This document shows positions 8,038 through 55,363 of a stretch of 64,000 bases of DNA, one piece after another. How positions within the stretch are numbered: the first letter of the stretch is position 1; every line of letters starts with the position of its first letter. A program made the translations under genes and the position numbers. This stretch comes from Lagopus muta. Taxonomy: Eukaryota > Chordata > Aves > Galliformes > Phasianidae. The notes under the pieces were generated by a model that saw only the letters and a list, made by a program, of their open reading frames with translations, searched no databases and was not told the DNA's origin. Location: contig NW_026040168.1 in assembly GCF_023343835.1 (NCBI RefSeq), positions 292,486-356,485 of the forward strand, read 5' to 3'.

Positions 8038-8617
8038 TGTGAGAATCAAGTGTTGTTTCTGCATTAGAATTGTATAATATTATTTTTATTTTATGATCTC
8101 TGCTATCATAGTTCCCTGGAACACTCTGTATATATGTGTATATATATATTTTGTCATACACACTGCAAGAATATCCTGCATGAGAGCAAACCAGAGAACA
8201 AGTCATGGCATGCCCGAGGAAGCGCCTGAAAAGACATTGGGAAGGCCTGCATCATCCCCCAGTGCTCTTTGTTTAACGATGATGACTTTAAAGAAAATCA
8301 CCATATCAATAGGACAAGGAGAGCACTGAGACCTCTTGGAGACAACTGGATGATTACTGACTGGCACCAGATAACAAATAAATTAACAAGTAAATAGCAA
8401 ATGTAAACCTTCTGATAAGATTGTGAACCTGGAGTACCCAGCCATTGGGGAATCAGGGGAGGGGGAAGGCAAGGGGGAGAAAACAGGGTATAAAGGCTGT
8501 CATGTTGTGTCCATAGGCGCGCTCCTACTTGCAGGACGCCCGCCATTGCAATCGCGAATAAATTTTGCTTTTTTCAGAGACACCGTCCTGACAAAATTAC
8601 TTGGATTATTTCCAACA
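8038..8617 (+). mobile_element. LTR 1 of the tandem, gammaretrovirus-like ERV (internally deleted)
   Basis: The LTR begins TGTGAGAATCAAGTG after a purine-rich tract and ends TTTCCAACA. It is 580 bp, versus about 660 bp for the other two copies. Roughly 90 bp present at about 8780-8870 in LTR 2 are missing here, just after TCATAGTT. It has a TATAAAGG box near 8489 and a canonical AATAAA about 70 bp further on. It serves as the 3' LTR of copy A. Confidence 0.9.
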
Positions 8618-8702
8618 AGGGCGATGTCTATAAAAGTGAACCTTAAAAAAAAAAAATTGCAGAAATCAACAATGTATTAAAAAAAAAGAAAAAGGGGGGA
8701 AT
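8618..8702 (+). repeat. Duplicated env-3'-end/polypurine tract between two LTRs
   Basis: This short segment repeats the end of env and the polypurine tract (GATGTCTATAAAAGTGAACC followed by A/G-rich sequence) that also precedes the LTRs at 8038 and 33672. It is sandwiched directly between LTR 1 and LTR 2, producing an LTR-PPT-LTR arrangement. Confidence 0.9.
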
Positions 8703-9365
8703 TGTGAGAATCAAGTGTTGTTTCTGCATTAGAATTGTATAATTTTATTTTTATTTTATGATCTCTGCTATCATAGTTCTTTTTGGGAGTCCTTCTACTT
8801 AACTTGGGGAAGATCTCTGATAAGTTTACATCACTTATTGTATAGACGAGCCTTCCCAGGAACGCACACTCTGTATAGAGGTGTATAGATGTATATTTTG
8901 TCATACACACTGCAAGAATATCCTGCACGAGAGCAAACCAGAGAACAAGTCATGGCATGCCCGAGGAAGCGCCTGAAGAGACATTGGGAAGGCCTGACAT
9001 CATCCCCCAGTGCTCTTTGTTTAACGATGATGACTTTAAAGAAAATCGCCATATCAGTAGGACAAGGAGAGCACGGAGACATCTTGGAAACAACAGGATG
9101 ACTGCTGACTGGCACCAGATAACAAATAAATTAACAAGTAAATAGCAAATGTGAACCTTCTGATAAGATTGTGAACCTGGAGTACCCAGCCAGTGGGGAA
9201 TCAGGGGAGGGGGGATGCAAGGGGGAGAAAACAGGGTATAAAGGCTGTCATGTTGTGTCCATAGGCGCGCTCCTGCTTGCGGGACGCCCGCCATTGCAAT
9301 CGCGAGTAAGTTTTGCTTTTATCAGAGATACCGTCCTGACAAAATTACTTGGATTATTTCCAACA
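8703..9365 (+). mobile_element. LTR 2 (5' LTR of gammaretrovirus-like ERV copy B)
   Basis: This 663-bp LTR has TG...CA ends, preceded by AAAAAGGGGGGAAT and followed after three bases by a primer binding site. A TATAAAG box sits at 9237-9243. The AATAAA found in LTR 1 is AGTAAG here. It pairs with the 3' LTR at 33672-34332, which has nearly the same length and sequence. Confidence 0.92.
9237..9243 (+). promoter_or_regulatory. TATA box in LTR 2
   Basis: TATAAAG lies in the U3 of the LTR and is conserved at the equivalent place in the other two copies (about 8489 and 34205). It is a class-typical polymerase II promoter position. Present activity is unknown. Confidence 0.7.
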
Positions 9366-9368
9366 ATT

Positions 9369-24032: not shown

Positions 24033-24499
24033 TGTCATGGTTCTATGTTTTTATGGTTTCAGTATTCCACATCAAAACATCATGTAGCGTACGGGGCATT
24101 AAACTGTCACTGGCCCAATCCCAGCTACCTATCCCTGTACATTACAGAAGTCACGGGATCTGGTCCTTCCAGGTGGGGGGGGGCGCTCTCTTGCTGCCTT
24201 GCAGTGGGTGCAGGAGGGTGCTTTCCTAGCTGTTCCAAGCTTTTCAGGTTTGACTCGGTCCCGGGAACTCTCTCTCTCATCTTGTCTGATTTATTCATCT
24301 CAATTTCAATTAAATTGTATATATTGTGTTATCTTGTATTCCGATATTATAGTAGAATAAGTTTTCCTCCATAGATTGTTGCCGCTGTTCTTTTCCTCCC
24401 TTCCTTCCTTCCCATTTTTGTGGGACTGGGGTGGATGGGGAGGGCAGAGGCCTGTCGCCCCTGTCACAGACATAGATTGATCTAGTCAACTCCGTGACA
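24033..24499 (+). mobile_element. 5' LTR of ERV-L 2
   Basis: 467 bp, TGTCATGGTTCTATG...CTCCGTGACA. It is the same LTR subfamily as those at 26941-27319, 30359-30832 and 52686-53155, and distinct from that of ERV-L 1. Confidence 0.92.
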
Positions 24500-24505
24500 G
24501 ATTTT

Positions 24506-24523
24506 TGGCGCCCAACGTGGGGC
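24506..24523 (+). other. Primer binding site, tRNA-Lys(1,2) type
   Basis: TGGCGCCCAACGTGGGGC is the exact primer site for tRNA-Lys1,2 used by several retrovirus groups, including foamy viruses. It starts six bases after the LTR end. Confidence 0.95.
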
Positions 24524-24779
24524 AGCTGCTTTTTAGCTTTTAGAACGAATCTCTTTTTCTCTCTGCTCTTAGAGAGCTTCGTTATGGAGCATTATCAGTA
24601 GTTCAGGTTTCTGTGCTGGAAAACCTGACCTTGAAAGATTAGGCGTACTGCCAGTGTTCTGGGATATTTGTAAACTTTGAGCACTACTTAGTCTGAGTAG
24701 TGCCTTTTTTCCTTTTCCTTTTTTTTCCCCTCCTCTTGTTAGCTTCAATTCATTAACCCGTTTTCAGCAAGCACCAGCA

Positions 24780-26594
24780 ATGAACCCACTCGTTATCATG
24801 GGAGTGCTGGGTAAAGGATTAAAAGCAATGGTTTTAGTCACAACCTACTGGCCAATAATCCATCTCACACTTACGTGTTTTGGAATTGCATCCGTGTATA
24901 ACTATCTAAGGGCACTGATGGAGACACCTATGTTTTACCTATATACAATGTGGTATGATTTGAACTTTGACATCTACATCCCAGAAGGAGTGGCTAATTT
25001 CACAAACAACTACATCCCAGAAGGAATGGCTAATTTCACAAACAACTACATCCCAAATGGAATAGCTAATTTTACAAACAACACGATGTTCAGACCAGTC
25101 TCCGGGTTTTCTTCTCGGTTTTTCAAACGTCTTTTGAATCCTGAATTAATAGTCATGTTGGTGTGCGTGTCATCAATTTTCCTGAATGTATTCCAAATTC
25201 ATTCGTAATGAGGGGAAGGAGTCTCCTCCAAAACTAGAGAATGATGATTGGTAGGGAATATGGAGAGGTTTAGGAAAGGTCTTAGAAGCATGGGGACCCG
25301 CAGTGTCATGGCATTTTACTCTTGAACACCTGTGGGATCCTGAGAAACTAAGCCAGTATTTGAGTCAGGGACTATGCGGCTTACATAAATCTAAAGAGGT
25401 ACAACTTATTTGGGGTTTGGCTTGTGCTTACTGTACCCTATATAATACCATTCTGGAGAGAGAGAGTTTCCCAGCTGAGGTTCAAGCCAAAGGGGAAAAT
25501 CCCCAAGTCAAATCTAATCAATCACAGGAGACACCAGTAACAATACCAGTTGCTCCTGTGGAGGGCAAGAAATGGAAACAAGTGTCTTCGCGTCTTGAAC
25601 GAAAAAGAGAAGAAGAGGAGGAGGAGGAGGTGGAGGAAGATCCAGGCAAGGGGCCCTCCTCAGAACCACCACCATCGCGAAAGGCAAAAGGGAAAACTAA
25701 GAGACATGCAGAAGAGAGTGATGAAGAGGAAATCTCTATTACTACTCGCCGGCCTCTAAAGATGACTGAAATCCAAGGTTCAAGAAAGGAGTTTACACGG
25801 CGCCCGAATGAAAGTCTTGTTTCCTGGTTGGTTTGCTGTTGGGACAGTGGGGCCCATAGCGTGTCTCTGGATGGTAATGAAGCTCGCCAACTAGGCGCCA
25901 TTGCCAGAGATCCAGCTATTGATAGAGGAATTAGTCGATGCTCGGATGAGGCTGCCTCCCTCTGGGAATGAGTGTTAATAGCTGTGAAGAAAAAGTATCC
26001 CTTCAAAAACGGCTTGAAGATTGCGATGAAGAAATGGGATACAGTTGAAAAGGGTAGCCAGTATTTGAGGGAAATAGGCGTGGTGGAAATGTTGTATGAC
26101 CCTAACTTTGTTCCTAACCAACCACACCAAAACCGTGACCCTGAAAAGGTGAGGACAACGCCTGAGATATGGCAGAAAATCGTGACAACCGCGCCGGACA
26201 AATATGCCTTTACACTATTGTCAGCGTGTGACAGATACCAGGAACAACAGAGAAATCCCTTAGTTTTCAAATTAATTGTTATGCTCCAAAACGACGAACA
26301 ATTGCTGTCCCCAATTCATGCTGCCGTGGCTGCAGTATCCAAAATGACGGAGCAGGTGTCTGAACTGATTAACCGTGAGAAACCTGTAGCAGTATCAGAA
26401 ACACTTGATGAAGATCAAAAGAATCAAATGAGTCTAGTGAAGGATGTGAAGGAGGTGAAGGAGACGATGAAATTTTTGCGAGCCCACCTAACTAAAGACG
26501 ATGAACCTTCCTTCTCACGTGCACCATCAAAAATCTCAGCTGTTAGAGGCAGACGCTCTCCGGCTCAAGTAAGGAATAATACACCGTGAATTGC
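24780..26594 (+). pseudogene. ERV-L 2 gag (N-terminal and central part)
   Basis: The start at 24780 (MNPLVIMGVLG) is shared with ERV-L 3 (53453). It begins with a hydrophobic segment, then three 12-residue repeats ending NFTNN (24975-25082), then a second hydrophobic helix (about 25145-25200). A one-base frameshift near 25200 and a TAG near 25253 break the frame. It resumes at 25303 with LEHLWDPEKLSQ, an acidic EEEEEEEVEE linker, and the conserved capsid motif EFTRRPNESLVSWLV...GNEARQLGAIARDPAIDRGI. A stop at 25969-25971 follows, then the capsid C-terminus to 26589. Translation ends where a nested provirus entered at 26595. Confidence 0.85.
26590..26594. other. Target-site duplication ATTGC (left)
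   Basis: ATTGC at 26590-26594 is repeated at 30833-30837. The ERV-L 3 gag shows the uninterrupted context (55205-55225), so the two halves rejoin as continuous gag when 26595-30837 is removed. Confidence 0.88.
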
Positions 26595-26663
26595 TGTCAC
26601 TGCCCCAATTCCAAGTACCTATCACTGTACATTACAGAAGTCACGGGATCTGGCCCTTCCGGG
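26595..26663 (+). mobile_element. Truncated U3 fragment of ERV-L LTR (plus orientation)
   Basis: TGTCACTGCCCCAATTCC through GGCCCTTCCGGG is LTR-internal sequence. It starts at a second TGTCA that lies about 75 bases inside the LTR, not at the true terminus TGTCATGG. Either a deletion joined the two TGTCA copies or integrase used the internal TGTCA as an end. The right side merges with 7SL across the shared CCGGG. Confidence 0.85.
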
Positions 26664-26940
26664 CGCGGTGGCGCACGCCTGTAATCCCAGCTACTCGGGA
26701 GGCTGAGCCCGCCGGATCGCTTGAGCCCAGGAGTTCTGGGCTGCAGTGCGCTATGCCGAGCGGGCGTCCGCGCTAAGGCCGGCATCAATATGGTGAGCCC
26801 CGGGGAGCCGAGGCACACCAGGTTGCCTAAGGAGGGGTGAACCGGCCCAGGTCGGAAACGGAGCAGGTCAAAACTCCCGTGCCGGTCAGTAGCGGGATCG
26901 CGCCTGTGAATAGCCACTGCAGCGTAGCCTGGGCAACACA
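26659..26940 (+). ncRNA. RN7SL: 7SL (signal recognition particle) RNA sequence embedded in provirus
   Basis: Begins CCGGGCGCGGTGGCGC, position 3 of vertebrate 7SL, and contains TGTAATCCCAGCTACTCGGG and the S-domain landmarks GGTGAACCGGCCCAGGTCGG and GGAGCAGGTCAAAACTCCCG. It ends at GCCTGGGCAACAC, about 17 bases short of the mature 3' end. It includes the S domain (TCAATATGGTG, GGTTGCCTAAGG), so it derives from full 7SL and not from an Alu-like SINE, which lacks that domain and does not occur in birds. The proviral context and missing 3' end and promoter flanks make it a retro-copy, not an active SRP RNA gene. Confidence 0.95.
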
Positions 26941-27319
26941 AAGAGCAGCGGCAACAATCTATGGAGGAAAACTTATTTTACTATAATATCGGAATACAAG
27001 ATAACACAATAGATACAATTTAATTGAAATTGGGATGAATAAATCAGACAAGGTGAGAAAGGGAGAGTTCCCGGGACCGATTCAAACCTGAAAAGCTTGG
27101 AACGGCTAGGAAAGCACCCTCCAGCACCCACTGCAAGGCAGCAAGAGAGCGCCCCCCCCACCCGGAAGGGCCAGATCCCGTGACTTCTGTAATGTACAGT
27201 GATAGGTACTTGGAATTGGGGCAGTGACACTTTAATGCCCCGTACACTACATGATGTTTTGATGTGGAATACTGAAACCCAAAAACAAAAACAAAAACAA
27301 AAAACATAGAACCATGACA
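26941..27319 (-). mobile_element. LTR lacking its U5 end, inside chimeric provirus
   Basis: Minus-strand LTR beginning TGTCATGGTTCTATG at 27319 and stopping at GCCGCTGCTCTTT (26941). The last about 85 bases present in the partner LTR (30378-30447) are replaced by 7SL. The partner LTR is otherwise nearly identical over this interval. On the plus strand its right side is the ATTCCACCCCTTATTCTAC polypurine/3' end region. Confidence 0.9.
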
Positions 27320-27429
27320 TTCCACCCCTTATTCTACATCATTACATCATGCTTAAAATATATATACATATATACAAACAAACAAAAAATGATTAAAATG
27401 CACACATGGCTATATACATATACATAGAA

Positions 27430-28692
27430 TTAGTAACTGCACTCCCCCGGCATCAAGTTTCCTTGTGGTACACACTGGACATCCCCATTCTTCTGCATTA
27501 CCCACCAAGTGGATCCTGGTCCCTGGGCAAAAACTGTACCACGAAGAGGTTTGCCCTTTCCAGAAGCTGGAAGAACCCAAACTGCCTTTCCTAACATGTT
27601 CTTTACATGTACAACAGGGACTTTATCTCCCTCTACGGTATGTAGGGAACTGGATTGATTAGGACCATCACGATTAATAGATCCTCTGGTATTGACTAAC
27701 CAGGTGGCTTCTGCCAAATGCTTCTCCCAGTGCTTAAATGTTCCGCCACCCAGTGCTTTTAGCATCGTTTTTAACAATCCATTGTATCGTTCAATTTTAC
27801 CAGAGGCTGGTGCATGATAGGGAATATGGTAAATCCACTCAATGCCATGATCTTTGGCCCAAGTATTTACAAGAGAATTTTTGAAATGAGTCCCATTATC
27901 TGACTCAATCCTTTCCGGGGTGCCATGTCGCCACAGGACTTGTTTCTCGAGACCCAGTATGGTGTTTCGGGCGGTAGCATGGGGTACTGCATATGTTTCA
28001 AGCCACCCAGTGGTTGCCTCCACCATAGTAAGCACATAATGCTTACCATTGCAAGATCGTGGCAAGGTGATATAATCAACCTGCCATGCCTCCCCATATT
28101 TGTACTTTTGCCATCGCCCTTCTTCCCACAGAGGTTTCATCCTCTTGGCTTGTTTGATGATGGCACATGTTTCACAGTTATGAATAACCTGTGCAATGGC
28201 ATCCATAGTTAAGTCCACCCCTCGGTCTCTAGCCCATTTGTATGTTGCATCTCTCCCTTGATGACCTGAGGTCTCATGGGCCCACCGAGCCAGAAATAAT
28301 TCACCCTTGTTCTGCCAGTCCAGGTCTAATTGAGCCACCTCAATTCTGGCAGCTCGGTCTACCTGATGGTTATTTTGCTGTTCTTCAGTAGCCCGACTCT
28401 TGGGCACATGAGCATCTACATGGCGCACCTTTACAACCATAGTCTTTGTTCGGGCAGCAATGTCTTTCCACAGTTCAGCAGCCCAGATAGGTTTACCCCT
28501 TCTTTGCCAGTTATTTTGCTCCCACTGCTGTAACCACCCCCATAAGGCATTTGCTACCATCCATGAGTCAGTGTAAAGATAGAGCATTGGCCACCTCTCC
28601 CGCTCAGCGACATCTAAGGCCAGTTGGACAGCCTTTACCTCTGCAAATTGGCTTGATTCGCCTTTCCCTTCAGTGGCCTCTGCAACTCGTCG
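27430..28692 (-). CDS. ERV-L RNase H C-terminal part and integrase, open reading frame
   Basis: A 385-codon open frame (28587 to 27430) preceded in frame by the GESSQFAEVKAVQLAL part of RNase H. Counted from 28587: RNase H Asp in YTDSWM (about residue 6), HVDAHVPKSRA linker, zinc domain H104/H109/C138/C141, and catalytic core D171 (VDYITLP), D230 (ESDNGTHF) and E266 (SGKIERYNG). D230 and E266 are 35 residues apart, the classical D,D35E spacing. The C-terminal WWVMQKNGDVQCVPQGNL closes it. All core residues are present. It lacks its own start and the upstream pol, which lies inverted next to it from 28693, so no normal Gag-Pol can be made. Confidence 0.88.
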   Translation of the reverse strand, partial: RRVAEATEGKGESSQFAEVKAVQLALDVAERERWPMLYLYTDSWMVANALWGWLQQWEQNNWQRRGKPIWAAELWKDIAARTKTMVVKVRHVDAHVPKSRATEEQQNNHQVDRAARIEVAQLDLDWQNKGELFLARWAHETSGHQGRDATYKWARDRGVDLTMDAIAQVIHNCETCAIIKQAKRMKPLWEEGRWQKYKYGEAWQVDYITLPRSCNGKHYVLTMVEATTGWLETYAVPHATARNTILGLEKQVLWRHGTPERIESDNGTHFKNSLVNTWAKDHGIEWIYHIPYHAPASGKIERYNGLLKTMLKALGGGTFKHWEKHLAEATWLVNTRGSINRDGPNQSSSLHTVEGDKVPVVHVKNMLGKAVWVLPASGKGKPLRGTVFAQGPGSTWWVMQKNGDVQCVPQGNLMPGECSY

Positions 28693-30261
28693 TGTGGGGG
28701 GGAAAGGGATAATAGAGTATATTGGACTGTGTGGATTCGATGGCCTGGCACATCAGAACCACTGAAATATAAGGCCCTGGTGGACACTGGTGCACAGTGC
28801 ACTCTGATGCCCTCGAGTCATGAAGGGACAGAATCAATCCATATTTCTGGAGTGACCGGGGGCTCTCAAGAATTGACTGTGTTGGAGGCCGAGATAAGCC
28901 TCACTGGTAAGGACTGGCAAAAACATCCTATTGTGACGGGCCCAGGGGCTCCATGTATACTAGGTATTGATTATCTCAGAAGGGGGCATTTCAAGGATCC
29001 TAAGGGGTATCGATGGGCTTTTGGAATAGCTGCTGTGGACACAGACAACATTAAGCAGCTGTCTGTTTTGCCTGGCCTGTCAGAAGATCCATCTGCTGTG
29101 GGGCTGCTGCGAGTAAAAGAGCAACAGGTACCAATTGCTACAAAAGTGGTGCACAGGCGTCAGTACCGCACCAACAGGGATTCTTTGCTCCCCATTCATA
29201 AGTTAATTCGTCAACTAGAGAGCCAGGGAGTGATCAGCAAAACTCACTCGCCTTTTAACAGCCCCATATGGCCAGTGCGTAAAGCCAGTGGAGAATGGAG
29301 GCTGACGGTGGACTACCGTGGCCTGAATGAAGTCACACCCCCACTGAGTGCTGCTGTGCCAGACATGTTAGAACTCCAGTATGAACTGGAGTCAAAAGAG
29401 GCCAAATGGTATGCCACCATTGACATTGCTAATGCCTTCTTTTCCATCCCTTTGGCCAAAGAATGTAAGCCACAGTTTGCTTTCACATGGAGGGGCATTC
29501 AGTATACCTGGAACCGTTTGCCCCAGGGGTGGAAACACAGCCCGACCATTTGCCATGGGTTGATTCAAACTGTATTGGAACAGGGCAGTGCTCCTGAGCA
29601 CCTGCAGTACATTGATGACATCATTGTGTGGGGCGATACAGCACAAGAAGTCTTCACAAAAGGAGAGAGGATGATCCAAATTCTTCTGAGTGCTGGTTTT
29701 GCTATTAAGCGAAGCAAAGTGAAAGGACCTGCCCAGGAGATCCAGTTCCTAGGTATAAAGTGGCAAGATGGCCGTCATCACATCCCGACAGATGTGATCG
29801 ACAAAATCACTGCTATGTCTCCACCCACTAGCAAAAGAGAGACACAATCTTTTCTGGGTGCAGTGGGCTTTTGGAGAATGCATGTTCCAAACTACAGCCT
29901 CATTGTAAGCCCCCTTTATTATGTGACGCGAATGAGAAATGAGTTTACATGGGGCCCTGAGCAGCAGCAGGCTTTTGAACAGATTAAACAGGAGATAGCC
30001 CGTGCCGTGGCCCTAGGGCCAGTACGAACGGGACAGGGTATAAAGAACATCCTCTACACTGCTGCTGGAGAGAACGGTCCCACTTGGAGTTTGTGGCAAA
30101 GAGCCTCAGGAGAGACACGAGGCCGACCCCTGGGATTCTGGAGTCGGGCATACAGAGGGTCTGAAGAGCACTACACTCCAACTGAGAAGGAGATCTTAGC
30201 CGCTTATGAAGGGGTTCGGGCTGCTTCCGAAATAGTCGGTACTGAAACACAGCTCCTTCTG
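28693..30261 (+). CDS. ERV-L protease and reverse transcriptase, open reading frame (inverted relative to its integrase)
   Basis: Open from about 28729. Residues counted from there: protease VDTGAQCTL (D19-T20-G21), GAPCILGIDYLRRG, RT EWRLTVDYRGLNE, TIDIANAFFSIPLA, and LQYIDDIIVWG (YIDD at 294-297). RNase H begins (GFWSRAYRGSEEHYTPTEKEIL) and ends abruptly at CAGCTCCTTCT, where U6 follows. This stretch is intact for protease and RT catalytic residues. The reading frame runs on through U6 to 30381 only by chance. About 360 bp of RNase H between this block and the inverted 28692 block are missing. Confidence 0.88.
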
Positions 30262-30307
30262 ATATGGAACGCTTCACGAATTTGCGAGTCATCCTTGCGC
30301 AGGGGCC

Positions 30308-30358
<51 letters not shown>
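30262..30358 (-). ncRNA. RNU6: U6 snRNA sequence embedded in provirus (retro-copy)
   Basis: On the minus strand: GCTTCGGCAGCACATATAC, then the ACAGAGAAGATTAGCATGG core with the catalytic ACAGAGA box, then CCCCTGCGCAAGGATGAC and TTCGTGAAGCGTTCCATAT. One difference from the vertebrate consensus is visible (GACTCGC for GACACGC). The first about six bases and the 3' U tail are missing. U6 normally forms the spliceosome catalytic core with U2. This copy has no upstream polymerase III elements and lies between RT and an LTR, so it is a captured cDNA. Confidence 0.96.
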
Positions 30359-30359
<1 letters not shown>

Positions 30360-30832
30360 CTATGTCAATCTATGTCCGTGACAGGGGCGACAGGCCTCTG
30401 CCCTCCCCCCTCCACCCCAGTCCCACAAAAATGGGAAGGAAGGAAGGGAGGAAAAGAGCAGCGGCAACAATCTATGGAGGAAAACTTATTTTACTATAAT
30501 ATCGGAATACAAGATAACACAATAGATACAATTTAATTGAAATTGGGATGAATAAATCAGACAAGGTGAGAAAGGGAGAGTTCCCGGGACCGATTCAAAC
30601 CTGAAAAGCTTGGAACGGCTAGGAAAGCACCCTCCAGCACCCACTGCAAGGCAGCAAGAGAGCGCCCCCCCCACCCGGAAGGGCCAGATCCCGTGACTTC
30701 TGTAATGTACAGTGATAGGTACTTGGAATTGGGGCAGTGACACTTTAATGCCCCGTACACTACATGATGTTTTGATGTGGAATACTGAAACCCAAAAACA
30801 AAAACAAAAACAAAAAACATAGAACCATGACA
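30359..30832 (-). mobile_element. LTR at the right end of the chimeric provirus
   Basis: Minus-strand LTR starting TGTCATGGTTCTATG at 30832 and running through R/U5 to CCTGTCACGGACATAGATTG. Its last bases are replaced by U6 via a short ACATAGTGC filler. It lacks the final GATCTAGTCAACTCCGTGACA found in the ERV-L 2 LTR. Confidence 0.9.
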
Positions 30833-32380
30833 ATTGCCTTATGGTATTACCTACGTGACCATGGAGAAGACATGAGGAAGTGGCACCGTCAACCTACTCC
30901 TGTACTACGAGCACGGGTGCAAGAATTACAAGGCAGATCAACCACCAGTGCAGTTGCTCCAGTTACCACAGGTAATGAATAGGGGGGCCCTTCCCTCAGT
31001 CAGGGGGGGGAAAGGGATAATAGAGTATATTGGACTGTGTGGATTCGATGGCCTGGCACATCAGAACCACTGAAATATAAGGCCCTGGTGGACACTGGTG
31101 TACAGTGCACTCTGATGCCCTCGAGTCATGAAGGGACAGAATCAATCCATATTTCTGGAGTTACCGGGGGCTCTCAAGAATTGACTGTATTGGAGGCCGA
31201 GATAAGCCTCACTGGTAAGGACTGGCAAAAACATCCTATTGTGACTGGCCCAGGGGCTCCGTGTATATTAGGTATTGATTATCTCAGAAGGGGGCATTTC
31301 AAGGATCCTAAGGGGTATCGATGGGCTTTTGGAATAGCTGCTGTGGACACAGACAACATTAAGCAGCTGTCTGTTTTGCCTGGCCTGTCAGAAGATCCGT
31401 CTGTTGTGGGGCTGCTGAGAGTAAAAGAGCAACTAGAGAGCCAGGGAGTGATCAGCAAAACTCACTCGCCTTTTAACAGCCCCATATGGCCAGTGCGTAA
31501 AGCCAGTGGAGAATGGAGGCTGATGGTGGACTACCGTGGCCTGAATGAAGTCACACCCCCACTGAGTGCTGCTGTGCCGGACATGTTAGAACTCCAGTAT
31601 GAACTGGAGTCAAAAGCAGCCAAATGGTATGCCACCATTGACATTGCAAATGCCTTCTTTTCCATTCCTTTGGCCAAAGAATGTAAGCCACAGTTTGCTT
31701 TCACCTGGAGGGGCATTCAGTATACCTGGAATCGTTTGCCCCAGGGGTGGAAACTCAGCCCGACCATTTGCCATGGGTTGATCCAAACTGTATTGGAACA
31801 GGGCAGTGCTCCTGAGCACCTGCAGGACATTGATGACATCATTGTGTGGAGGCGATACAGCAGAAGAAGTCTTCACAAAAGGAGAGCGAATAATCCAAAT
31901 TCTTCTGAGTGCTGGTTTTGCTATTAAGTGAAGCAAAGTGAAAGGACCTGCCCAGGAGATTCAGTTCCTAGGTATAAAGTGGCAAGGTGGCCGTCGTCAC
32001 ATCCCAACAGATGTGATCGACAAAATCACTGCCATGTCTCCGCCCACTAGCAAAAGAGAGAGACAATCTTTTCTGGGTGCAGTGGGCTTTTGGAGAATGC
32101 ATGTTCCAAACTACAGCCTCATTGTAAGTCCCCTTTATTATGTGACGTGAATGAGAAATGATTTTACATGGGGCCCTGAGCAGCAGCAGGCTTTTGAACA
32201 GATTAAACAGGAGATAGCCCGTGCTGTGGCCCTAGGGCCAGTACGAATGGGACGGGGTATAAAGAACATCCTCTATACTGCTGCGGGAGAGAACGGTCCC
32301 ACTTGGGAGTTTGTGGCAAATAGCCTCAGGAGAGACCTGAGGCCGACCCCTGGGATTCTTGAGTCGAGCCTACAGGGGTA
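30833..32380 (+). pseudogene. ERV-L 2 gag C-terminus, protease and RT (continuation after nested insertion)
   Basis: Gag resumes with YYLRDHGEDMRKWHRQPTP to about 30980. Protease starts near 31030 with VDTGVQCTL. RT lacks about 111 bases between LRVKEQ and LESQGV relative to the copy at 28729, leaving the frame intact. The catalytic motif reads LQDIDD instead of LQYIDD, a substitution expected to disable RT. A frameshift at about 31855, a TGA at 31926 and a TGA near 32148 break the rest. It ends at 32380 within early RNase H at the junction with gammaretrovirus-like sequence. Confidence 0.87.
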
Positions 32381-33671
32381 AAACTGAGCCAGGAAGCTGG
32401 ACTATCCTGATCACAGTTGTTGCCTTTGGCTCTCCTTAGTACCAGAATAAAACCTAGAGCTAAAGAGGGGTTAAGTCCTTTCAAAATACTGTACAGAAGG
32501 CCTTATGTTGTACAAAAGGGGATTTTTACCCAAGTAGGGAGCAAAATGCTAACTGAGCATGTGATAAGTCTACAGGAATAGCTCTGAGAAAAAGAGAAAC
32601 TGGATCTAGGAACTAGAGCCCAAGGCCTTGATATGGCTCGATAATATGAATGTAACAAATCTCTTTCAGATTCGCCCCTGGAACCAAGGTGGTTAGGTCT
32701 GTTCCAGGTGCTGCTAACTTCCCACACAACAGTAAAAGCATTGTGGATAAATCATACTAGAGTTAAGAAGGTCCATCGAACACAGTGAGAACTGAAATCA
32801 GCTGGACCCTTAAAATTGTGAATCCAAAGACAGAAATGTGGGCTTTTGTAATTGTTGGAAATGTTGATTTGATGAGTGCAGCATTTGATCTAAATACTTA
32901 TGCATCTCTTGTGACAAACATCGTTACGTATCAGTATTGTTTGGTATGTGGGCAAGCTAAGGATTTAAACTTTTCTCTTCTTGTTGTTCTCGATGATTTT
33001 AAGGCAAGAAATCAAGCTGTTGCAGGGTTTGAGTCACTGTCCTGGTGGGTGATGATCAACAAGAATGTAGATTGGATTAACTACATCTGTTCTAATCAAT
33101 GGAGATTTACAAATTATACAAAGAGTGCAATAAAGAGAATTGCAGGACAATTATAGGCCACAAGTAGGGTGGCCTGAGAAAATAGGATCTCCTAAGATAT
33201 GATAAAAGAGTGTATATGTAATGATGGGTATTGTTGTTGCACACCTTCATCCCAATTACACAGCTCTGGATGACGTCATAACTAAGGCATTGCAAGGGCT
33301 TGGTGCCACCCTTGTCAATGAAGTGGCAGAAAAATCAGGAATAGATACTTCTGTCACTGGATGGTTGGAGTCCTGGTTTGGTGAATGGAAAGCGGTGACT
33401 GTATCCACATATACTTCTTTGATGGTAGCAGCAGGAGCCTTGATGGCCACTGGTTGCTGTGTTATCCCCTTTGTGAGGGGACTAGTAGAGTGACTGATAG
33501 AGAGAGCACTATTGAAGCAAGCACTAATGGAGCCATTACATTTGGATAAAATTATGGTATTAGAGGAGATGGGAGATAAGGAAAGTGAAGACGAGGGAGA
33601 TGTCTATAAAAGTGAACCTTAAAAAAAAATTGCAGAAATCAACAATGTATGAAAAAGAAAAAGGGGGGAAT
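32381..33671 (+). pseudogene. Gammaretrovirus-like ERV copy B: integrase C-terminus and env remnant
   Basis: Parallel to 6740-8037 in copy A. It shows the integrase C-terminal domain (LFQVLLTSHTTVKALWINHTRVKKVH, about 32695-32785), an Env N-proximal frame (32785-33156) and a TM C-terminal frame (33221-33493). The TM frame has NYTALDDVITKALQGL, WLESWFGEWKAVTV, a hydrophobic helix, and GCCVIPFVRGLVE. The env lacks most of its surface subunit in both copies, so the deletion predates the tandem. The polypurine tract AAAAGGGGGGAAT ends the segment. Confidence 0.83.
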
Positions 33672-34332
33672 TGTGAGAATCAAGTGTTGTTTCTGCATTA
33701 GAATTGTATAATATTATTTTTATTTTATGATCTCTGCTATCATAGTTCTTTTTGGGAGTCCCTCTACTTAACTTGGGGAAGATCTCTGATAAGTTTACAT
33801 CACTTATCGTATAGACGAACCTTCCCAGGAACACACACTCTGTATAGAGGTGTATAGATGTATATTTTGTCATACACACTGCAAGAATATCCTGCACGAG
33901 AGCAAACCAGAGAACAGCCATGGCATGCCTGAGGAAGCGCCTGAAGAGACATTGGGAAGGCCTGACATCATCCCCCAGTGCTCTTTGTTTAACGATGATG
34001 ACTTTAAAGAAAATCGCCATATCAATAGGACAAGGAGAGCACGGAGACATCTTGGAAACAACAGGATGACTACTGACTGGCACTAGATAACAAATAAATT
34101 AACAAGTAAATAGCAAATGTGAACCTTCTGATAAGATTGTGAACCTGGAGTACCCAGCCAGTGGGGAAACAGGGGAGGGGGGAGGCAAGGGGGAGAAAAC
34201 AGGGTATAAAGGCTGTCATGATGTGTTCATAGGCGCGCTCCTGCTTGCGGGACGCCAGCCATTGCAATCGCGAGTAAATTTTGCTTTTATCAGAGATACC
34301 GTCCTGACAAAATTACTTGGATATTTCCAACA
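33672..34332 (+). mobile_element. 3' LTR of gammaretrovirus-like ERV copy B
   Basis: 661 bp, TGTGAGAATCAAG...TTTCCAACA, nearly identical to LTR 2 (8703-9365). It has a TATAAAGG box near 34205. It is followed directly by the 3' end of another ERV-L rather than a recognisable duplicated target. Confidence 0.92.
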
Positions 34333-52685: not shown

Positions 52686-53155
52686 CGTCATGGTTCTATG
52701 TTTTTTTGTTTTTGGGTTTCAGTATTCCACATCAAAACATCATGTAGCGTACGGTGTATTGAAGTGTCACTGCCCCAATTCCAGGTACCTATCCCTGTAC
52801 ATTACAGAAGTCACGGGATCTGGCCCTTCCGGGTGGGGGGGGTGCTCTCTTACTGCCTTGCAGTGGGTGCTGGAGGGTGCTTTCCTAGCCGTTCCAAGCT
52901 TTTCAGGTTTGACTCGGGCCTGGGAACTCTCTCATCTTGTCTGATTTATTAATCTCAATTTCAATTAAATTGTATATATTGTGTTATCTAGTATTCCGAT
53001 ATTATAGTAAAATAAGTTTTCCTCCATAGATTGTTGCTGCTGTTCTTTTCCTCCCTTCCTTCCTTCCCATTTTTGGGGGACTGGGGTGGGGGGGGGAGGG
53101 CGGGGGCCTGTCGCCCCTGTCACGGACATAGACTGATCTAGTCAACTCCGTGACA
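52686..53155 (+). mobile_element. 5' LTR of ERV-L 3
   Basis: 470 bp, first bases CGTCATGGTTC (the canonical first T is C), ends CTCCGTGACA. Same subfamily as the ERV-L 2 LTR at 24033-24499. Confidence 0.9.
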
Positions 53156-53162
53156 GATTTTT

Positions 53163-53180
53163 CGGTGCCCAACGTGGGGC
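53163..53180 (+). other. Primer binding site, decayed tRNA-Lys(1,2) type
   Basis: CGGTGCCCAACGTGGGGC differs from the tRNA-Lys1,2 site at two positions. Position after the LTR is the same as in ERV-L 2. Confidence 0.85.
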
Positions 53181-53452
53181 AGCTGCTTTTTAGCTTTTAA
53201 AATGAATCTTCTTTTCTCTCTGCTCTAAGAGAGCATCGTTAGGGAGCATTATCAGTAGTTCAGGTTTCTGTGCTGGAAAACCTGACCTTGAAAGATTAGG
53301 CGTACTGCCAGTGTTCTGGGATATTTGTAAACTTTGAGCACTACTTAGTCTGGGTAGTGCCTTTTTTTTTTCTTTTTTCTTTTTTTTTTTTTTTTTTTCC
53401 CCTCCTCTTGTTAGCTGCAATTCATTAACCCTTTTTTTAGCAAGCACCAGCG

Positions 53453-55363
53453 ATGAACCCACTCATTATCCTGGGGGTGCTGGGTAAAGGATTAAAAGCA
53501 ATGGTGTTACTCACAACCTAATGGCCAATAATCAAGCTCATAATTACTTGTGGAATTGCGTTCATATATAACTACCTAATGGCACTGAAGGAGACACCTA
53601 TATTTTACCTATTTGCAATGTGGTATGATTTGAATTTTGACATTTACATCCCAGAAGGAATAGCTAATTTCACAAACAACTACATCCCAAATGGAATTGC
53701 TAATTTTACAAACAACATGATGTTCAGACCAGTCTCCGGGTTTTCTTCTCGGTTTGTCAAACGTTTTTTGAAACCTGAATTAATACTCATGTTGGTGTGC
53801 ATGTCATTAATTTTTCTGAATCTATTTCAATTCATTCGTAATAAGGGGAAGGAGTCTACTCGAAAACATGAGAATGATGATTGGCATGGAATATGGAGAG
53901 GTTTAGGAAAGGTTTTAGAAGCATGGGGACCCGCAGTGTCATGGGATTTCACTCTTGAACACCTGTGGGATCCTGAGAAACTAAGCCAGATTTTGAGTCA
54001 GGGACTATGCGGCTTACATAAATCTAAGGAGGTACAACTTAATTGGGGTTTGGCTTGTGCTTACCGTGCCCTATATAATACCATTCTGGAGAGAGAGAGT
54101 TTCCCAGCTGAGGTTCAAGCCAAAGGGGAAAATCCCCAAGTCAAATCTAATCAATCAAAGGAGACACCAGTAACAATACCAGTTGCTCCTGGGGAGGGCA
54201 AGAAATGGAAACGAGTGTCTTCGCGTCTTGAACGAAAAAGAGAAGAAGAGGAGGAGGAGGAGGTGGAGGAAGATCCAGGCGAGGGGCCCTCCTCAGAACC
54301 ACCACCATCGCGAAAGGCAAAAGGGTAAACTAAGAAACGTGCAGAAGAGAGTGATGAAGAGGAAGTCTCTATTACTACTTGCCGGCCTCTAAAGATGACT
54401 GAAATCCAAGGTTCAAGAAAGGAGTTTACACGGCGCCCGAATGAAAGTCTTGTTTCCTGGTTGGTTCGCTGTTGGGACAGTGGGGCCAATAGCTTGTCTC
54501 TGGATGGTAATGAAGCTCGACAACTAGGCGCCATTGCCAGAGATCCAGCTATTGATAGAGGAATTAGTTGATGTTCGGATGAGGCTACCAGCCTCTGGGA
54601 ACGAGTGTTAATAGCCGTGAAGGAAAAGTATCCCTTCAAAAAGGGCTTGAAGATTGCAATGAAAAAATGGGATATAGTTGAAAAGGGTAGCCAGCATTTG
54701 AGGGAAATAGGCGTGGTGGAAATGTTGTATGACCCTAATTTTGTTCCTAACCACCCACACCAAGTCTGCGACCCTGAAAAAGTGAGGACGACGCCTGAGA
54801 TATGGCAGAAACTCGTGACAACAGCACCGGACAAATATGGTGCTACACTAATGTCAGCATGTGACAGATACCAGGAACAACAGAGAAATCCCTTAGTTTT
54901 CAAATTAATTCTTACGCTCCAAAACTACGAACAATTGCTGTCCCCAATTCATGCTGCCGTTTATGCTATCTCACAAATGACGGAGCAAGTGTCTCAACTG
55001 ATTAACCGTGACAAAACTGTAGCAGTCACATAGATGCTTGATGAAGATCAGGATAATCAAATGAGTCTAATGAAGGAGGTGAAGGAAATGATGAAATTTA
55101 TGCGAGCCCACCTAACTAAAGACGATGGACCTTCCTTCTCACGTGCACCATCAAAAATCTCAGCTGTTAGAGGCAGACGCTCTCCGGCTCAAGTAAGGAA
55201 TAATACACCGCGAATTATCTTACGGTATTACCTACATGACCATGGAAAAGACATGAGGAAGTGGCACCGTGAACCTACTCCTGTACTACGAGCATGGGTG
55301 AAAGAATTACAAGGCAGATCAACCACCAGTGCAGTTGCTCCAGTTACCACAGGTAATGAATAG
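53453..55363 (+). pseudogene. ERV-L 3 gag
   Basis: Starts MNPLIILGVLGKGLK. A TAA near 53520 interrupts it. It continues with two 12-residue NFTNN repeats (53645-53716), a hydrophobic helix, WHGIWRGLGKVLEAWGP and the acidic EEEEEEEVEE linker to a stop at 54326-54328 (TAA where ERV-L 2 has AAA). Capsid continues (EFTRRPNESLVSWLVRCWDSGANSLSL). There is a TGA near 54570, then 54605-55033 (ending in TAG), and 55034-55363 ending LRDH-type KDMRKWHREPTPVL...TTGNE. Unlike ERV-L 2 it has only nonsense changes here, without the frameshift near 25200. Confidence 0.87.

Follow-up and report, generated by a model that had tools for sequence, protein, structure and literature searches.

How do 7SL and U6, both small RNAs of the host, come to be present as DNA copies inside a single retroviral insertion? 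This question is raised by a locus of Lagopus muta in the window (the whole stretch of DNA that we analyzed, 64,000 nucleotides, bases 292486-356485 of contig C58), which belongs to an assembly of 1.03 Gb in 165 contigs. A sequence-only reading of the window had attributed both RNAs to a single faulty reverse transcription and subsequent integration. Our analysis supports this proposal through the RNA-end boundaries, the strand polarity, and the 5-bp duplication, and we consider it very probable that the insertion arose when a young endogenous retrovirus (ERV) copied both 7SL and U6 RNA in one aberrant round of reverse transcription and the product was integrated.

Boundaries and target site of the insertion

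Positions 26595-30832 form a single 4,238-bp insertion. The sequence-only reading had described a 4.2-kb segment between two copies of ATTGC, and these were confirmed directly before 26595 and directly after 30832 (Table 1). When the flanks were joined with one ATTGC kept, they aligned without gaps over 188 bases with a paralogous provirus in 55100-55330. This paralogue is uninterrupted and reads ATTAT at the target position, versus ATTGC at the insertion.

The insertion is nested. Its target, on which the earlier reading was silent, was identified by self-matches as another, related provirus in forward orientation with a related LTR (about 94% identical). Duplications of 5 bp were seen by eye at four of the four solo LTRs of the family (L015-L018), a score that excludes L014, where the locus continues into a provirus; LINE insertions are not known to have a fixed 5-bp duplication. 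Because of the gapless paralogous site and the 5-bp duplications at the solo LTRs, the whole unit most likely entered at once, by the family's mode of integrase action.

Elsewhere in the window, a stretch of about 500 bases was found twice in direct order (94.8% identity; 8121-9366). Both copies match 33591-34332, and the repeat may be a duplication within a proviral 3′ part.

Table 1. Features of the insertion and of its target provirus (positions in the window)
Feature	Position	Strand	Remarks
Target provirus, 5′ part	24034..26594	+	24034-26592 is 90.5% identical to 52687-55216; presumably LTR, primer site, and gag region
Target duplication ATTGC, left copy	26590..26594	.	Second copy at 30833-30837
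LTR fragment, LTR positions about 91-159, starting at an internal TGTCAC	26595..26663	+	Matches 27161-27229 in reverse complement at all 69 bases
7SL (SRP) RNA copy, 282 bp	26659..26940	+	CCGGG shared with the LTR at the left join, A at the right
LTR without U5 end	26940..27319	-	380/380 identical to 30453-30832
3′ half of pol (RNase H, integrase)	27320..28699	-	rve and RNase_H over cut-offs
Inversion junction with GGGG microhomology	28696..28699	.	Meeting of the opposed pol halves
5′ half of pol (RT with the stretch upstream of it and the beginning of the RNase H-like part)	28696..30261	+	RVT_1, RT_RNaseH_2
U6 snRNA copy without terminal U run, bluntly joined to pol	30262..30360	-	Rfam and junction comparison
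LTR with true U3 terminus at right end, U5 shortened at the U6 join, apparent 10-bp duplication GACATAGATT	about 30361..30832	-	Comparison with other LTR copies
Target duplication ATTGC, right copy	30833..30837	.	Abuts 30832
Target provirus, 3′ part	30838..34332	+	Right limit inferred from self-matches

Arrangement and age of the viral sequences

On the plus strand, the elements follow one another as LTR fragment (forward), 7SL (forward), LTR (reverse), RNase H/integrase (reverse), RT half (forward), U6 (reverse), and LTR (reverse). The pol gene reported before is present, but its halves are inverted relative to each other, with RT on the plus strand and RNase H/integrase on the minus strand. 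RVT_1, RNase_H, and rve all scored above their cut-offs, which places the element among the LTR retroelements; Integrase_H2C2, on the minus strand, reached 24.7 bits, just under its cut-off of 25.5. The 5-bp target duplication around the insertion agrees with membership in the LTR family, and ERV-L, the name given in the sequence-only reading, is its putative class. The frame of the 5′ pol half is open, with no in-frame stop. The integrase half has two stops in its best frame over 27320-28695 and an open stretch from 27430 to 28752. The 36 bases of the centre junction occurred once genome-wide at up to three mismatches, while the reversed control gave no match.

There are three LTR pieces instead of the two noted earlier. 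The right end of the insertion coincides with the true U3 terminus in 20 of 20 bases. As letters, the reported TGTCA/TGACA ends are correct, but the left one is no genuine LTR start: it is an internal TGTCA at LTR position 91, which has five bases in common with the U3 terminus and six with the U5 terminus. Integration was therefore not quite as normal as claimed earlier, since one end is a cryptic internal site. TGTCA is found three times in the 472-base LTR piece, and a product that stopped by chance near a site of this type could still have been usable by the integrase. The apparent 10-bp duplication at the U6-U5 join was present in none of the 16 other LTR copies compared at their U5 ends.

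The insertion is young, because two of its LTR copies show no differences over 380 bp; the 69-base arm is likewise identical. At a bird substitution rate of 1.9e-9 per site per year, the absence of differences, calculated with a 67-base arm, corresponds to an upper bound near 1.9 million years. Near-identical LTR copies (among 40 candidates scored) are numerous on contigs C57 and C58, where some are paired about 6.0 kb apart.

The palindromic arms formed by 26595-26663 and 27161-27229 resemble library artefacts, and a sequencing or assembly chimera must be weighed as the source of the whole structure. In a DNA chimera, however, one would not expect the boundaries to coincide with RNA ends and the gene flanks to be missing, nor would one expect the whole to be framed by a duplication of 5 bp, the size typical of this family; there is also no N in 26300-31200. 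We therefore regard such a chimera as a very unlikely source of the insertion.

The 7SL copy

The length and identity of the 282-bp 7SL sequence were confirmed with Rfam, whose Metazoa_SRP model matched at 26658-26957 with 250.2 bits. The copy is identical (282/282) to the gene at L011. Neither the flanks nor the promoter of that gene, which the sequence-only reading had suggested looking for, accompany it at the insertion. It begins at position 2 of the Rfam model, and it stops about 16-20 nt before the 3′ end of the gene, which was taken at the T run. The 7SL copy thus has the form of a host RNA recombinant: the RNA without gene flanks, inside one integrated unit.

A genome search with 7SL alone gave six candidates, all of which were scored. 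Besides the insertion, C9 contributed two identical genes as well as two diverged copies, and C1 contributed a 48-bp piece. No full 7SL copy was found in this search beyond the insertion and the C9 gene cluster. The 275-base core of the copy matches both C9 genes at 275 of 275 positions. None of the C9 loci (L010-L013) had an LTR match, and at the C1 locus there were only short or weak window matches besides the 7SL piece, the nearest of them more than 1.3 kb away. The search of the same genome for further copies with the same breakpoints, also proposed earlier, showed the 7SL-LTR join and the centre join once each; single-copy status was established for these two joins only. A multi-copy LTR-7SL family was considered and rejected, as only one instance was found in these searches.

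On C9, at about 57.43-57.55 Mb (L010-L013), a distance of about 107 kb separates the two genes, which have opposite orientations and do not differ within the 275-base query; two diverged 7SL copies (85-87%) are located within 3 kb of one of these genes. The C1 piece (L034; G000:C1:78347423-78347470, from 1501) is part of the 7SL apical stem at 92% identity. Rfam gave a weak SRP match alone at this locus, and a stretch a few bases past the piece is presumably similar to a glycine tRNA in its 5′ half. L034 is perhaps a further small-RNA chimera.

The U6 copy

Rfam identified U6 on the minus strand at 30360-30258 (103.8 bits). The earlier identification of U6 stood, and its length was corrected from 97 bp to about 99 bp (30262-30360). 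Because GCTT occurs once near the 5′ end of this copy, versus twice in U6-like copies such as L001 and L003, the copy was either cut a few bases short at its 5′ end or internally shortened there. The eight U6-like loci read for comparison were all diverged.

Two features of the U6 joins were tried and rejected. U6 is not joined at the primer-binding site, since other LTRs place the U6 join upstream of the U5 end. Microhomology at the pol-U6 join was ruled out by two relatives in the window, which show that the join is blunt.

A stepwise history would start from an ordinary provirus, into which LINEs later inserted 7SL and U6 retropseudogenes and in which an inversion also took place. LINE-1 is reported to form U6 and 7SL chimeras and pseudogenes in mammals (PMC13174262), and U6-like copies do exist at other places in this genome: of 48 scored candidates, 22 matched at E<=0.001. 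Against this history, the viral sequence is not contiguous across either RNA, and no duplication or tail was seen by eye to frame either of them; on these grounds, 7SL and U6 were ruled out as later LINE insertions. The 7SL search, moreover, yielded no other full copy beyond the C9 gene cluster, and the LTR copies leave no time gap for successive steps. We judge the stepwise history to be extremely unlikely.

Joins between the segments

The five joins differ in the bases that the adjoining segments share. CCGGG (5 bp) is common to the LTR and the 5′ end of 7SL, and GGGG (4 bp) to the two pol halves at the centre. The passage from 7SL to the LTR has one exact common base inside an imperfect longer match, that from pol to U6 has none, and that from U6 to U5 has about one. 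Microhomology of 4-5 bp is thus found at two of the five joins and of 0-1 bp at the other three.

Host replication-based repair, with microhomology-mediated template switching on DNA, would account for the short microhomologies at two of the five joins. It does not predict the absence of 7SL gene flanks, the boundaries at RNA ends, or the integrase-type duplication together with an LTR terminus, and we give it almost no credence.

In a small sample of other LTR-family loci, Rfam found LTR-small RNA joins in none of 14 stretches of about 3 kb; this sample omits the loci of the element itself (L009, L019, L029, and L035). No tRNA genes were found within the window.

Proposed origin

We think it probable that a single retroviral particle, either a released virion or an intracellular particle, reverse-transcribed 7SL into one strand and U6 into the other, up to near their 5′ ends, and that integration of the product made use of a true terminus on one side and an imitation on the other. 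Both RNA copies end at or near the 5′ end of the RNA, the place where a polymerase working on RNA must stop or jump. In the plus direction U6 is antisense, and in the minus direction 7SL is antisense; each could therefore have been appended when synthesis of one strand came to its end. Addition at the completion of each strand would account for the position of the RNAs beside LTRs, for the normal right end, and for the abnormal left end. Run-off template switching agrees with the strand polarity.

The minus-strand cDNA, corresponding to the plus strand of the window, would have begun with U3-R and gone on to copy integrase and RNase H. At GGGG it would have switched onto a DNA copy of the other pol half, in the opposite sense; the inversion within pol requires that the new template was a DNA strand. 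After run-off, synthesis may have moved to the 3′ end of U6 RNA, followed this RNA almost to the 5′ end, and continued into the U5 of a plus-strand LTR, which would have been copied as far as the true U3 terminus. Plus-strand synthesis may have left the LTR for 7SL RNA, entering it about 16-20 nt before the 3′ end and proceeding to about nt 2. At CCGGG it would have returned to LTR sequence, and it would have stopped near GTGACA, an imitation of the U5 terminus. Integrase would then have joined the true and the imitation ends to the target and made the 5-bp duplication. We infer the order of the switches, the copying of the last LTR from a plus-strand template, and the placing of all steps in one particle. 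Several observations speak against this explanation: five template switches in one molecule are many, three of the five joins share at most about one base, and no further LTR-small RNA join was seen at the 14 other LTR loci. In addition, the left terminus is no genuine LTR end, so the integrase must have used a cryptic site.

The sequence-only reading had left it open whether 7SL and U6 served as templates or as primers, and the template role is the one that our results favor. If U6, and perhaps 7SL, had acted as a primer in the same particle event, viral RNA would have been the template on which the 3′ end of the small RNA was extended, and copying of the attached small RNA would have followed, as with a tRNA primer. 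It is indeed the 3′ end of U6 that abuts antisense pol, as would be expected of an extended primer. Against a priming role, the 3′ end of neither RNA pairs well by eye with the adjoining viral sequence, and neither 3′ end is intact, since U6 lacks its terminal U run and 7SL about 16-20 nt. Priming is in our opinion unlikely.

If the copying of both RNAs as templates in one particle is correct, the retroviral machinery is itself able to deposit snRNA and 7SL copies in the vertebrate germline. The locus is a natural candidate for such an event, with both RNAs together within an integrase-type duplication, and this opens the question to PCR tests and to surveys of joins between LTRs and small RNAs. 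The locus is also a record of which RNAs probably shared one particle and of which ends the integrase accepted.

Comparison with known systems

Giles et al., in 2004, reportedly addressed the packaging and reverse transcription of snRNAs by retroviruses and proposed them as a source of pseudogenes. Judged by its title, that work shares with our locus the use of an snRNA by a retroviral reverse transcriptase; the copy described here lies inside an integrated provirus with an integrase-type duplication. LTR-mediated retroposition of mRNAs is likewise said to join host RNA to retroviral sequence during reverse transcription.

In the titles and opening parts of abstracts listed by searches of the open-access literature, we found no natural germline provirus that contains both 7SL and U6, although one may already be in print. 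According to the available sections of a review, retroviral particles, those of RSV among them, contain about 12 copies of 7SL and about one of U6, and 7SL reverse transcripts were patched into one experimental recombinant (PMC4997597). The same sections mention the suggestion that retroviruses might make snRNA pseudogenes, at least many of which carry LINE signatures (PMC4997597). Capture of 7SL therefore has a laboratory precedent, and the presence of both RNAs in one germline provirus is the part for which we found no report.

That precedent, the laboratory recombinant of Hajjar and Linial (1993, as given in the available sections of PMC4997597), resembles our insertion as a retroviral product with 7SL copied in. 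The insertion differs in being natural and part of a genome assembly, and in having U6 as well, an inverted pol, and a cryptic end. The LINE-1 chimeras, as far as the available parts of the report describe them (PMC13174262), show template switching onto the same abundant small RNAs; the LINE-1 mechanism, in contrast, is target-primed and gives no LTR ends. With the patch-repair recombinants (section 5.1 of PMC4997597) and with LTR-mediated retroposition of mRNAs, the insertion has in common that host RNA was joined during reverse transcription, whereas it carries two structured non-coding RNAs in one provirus.
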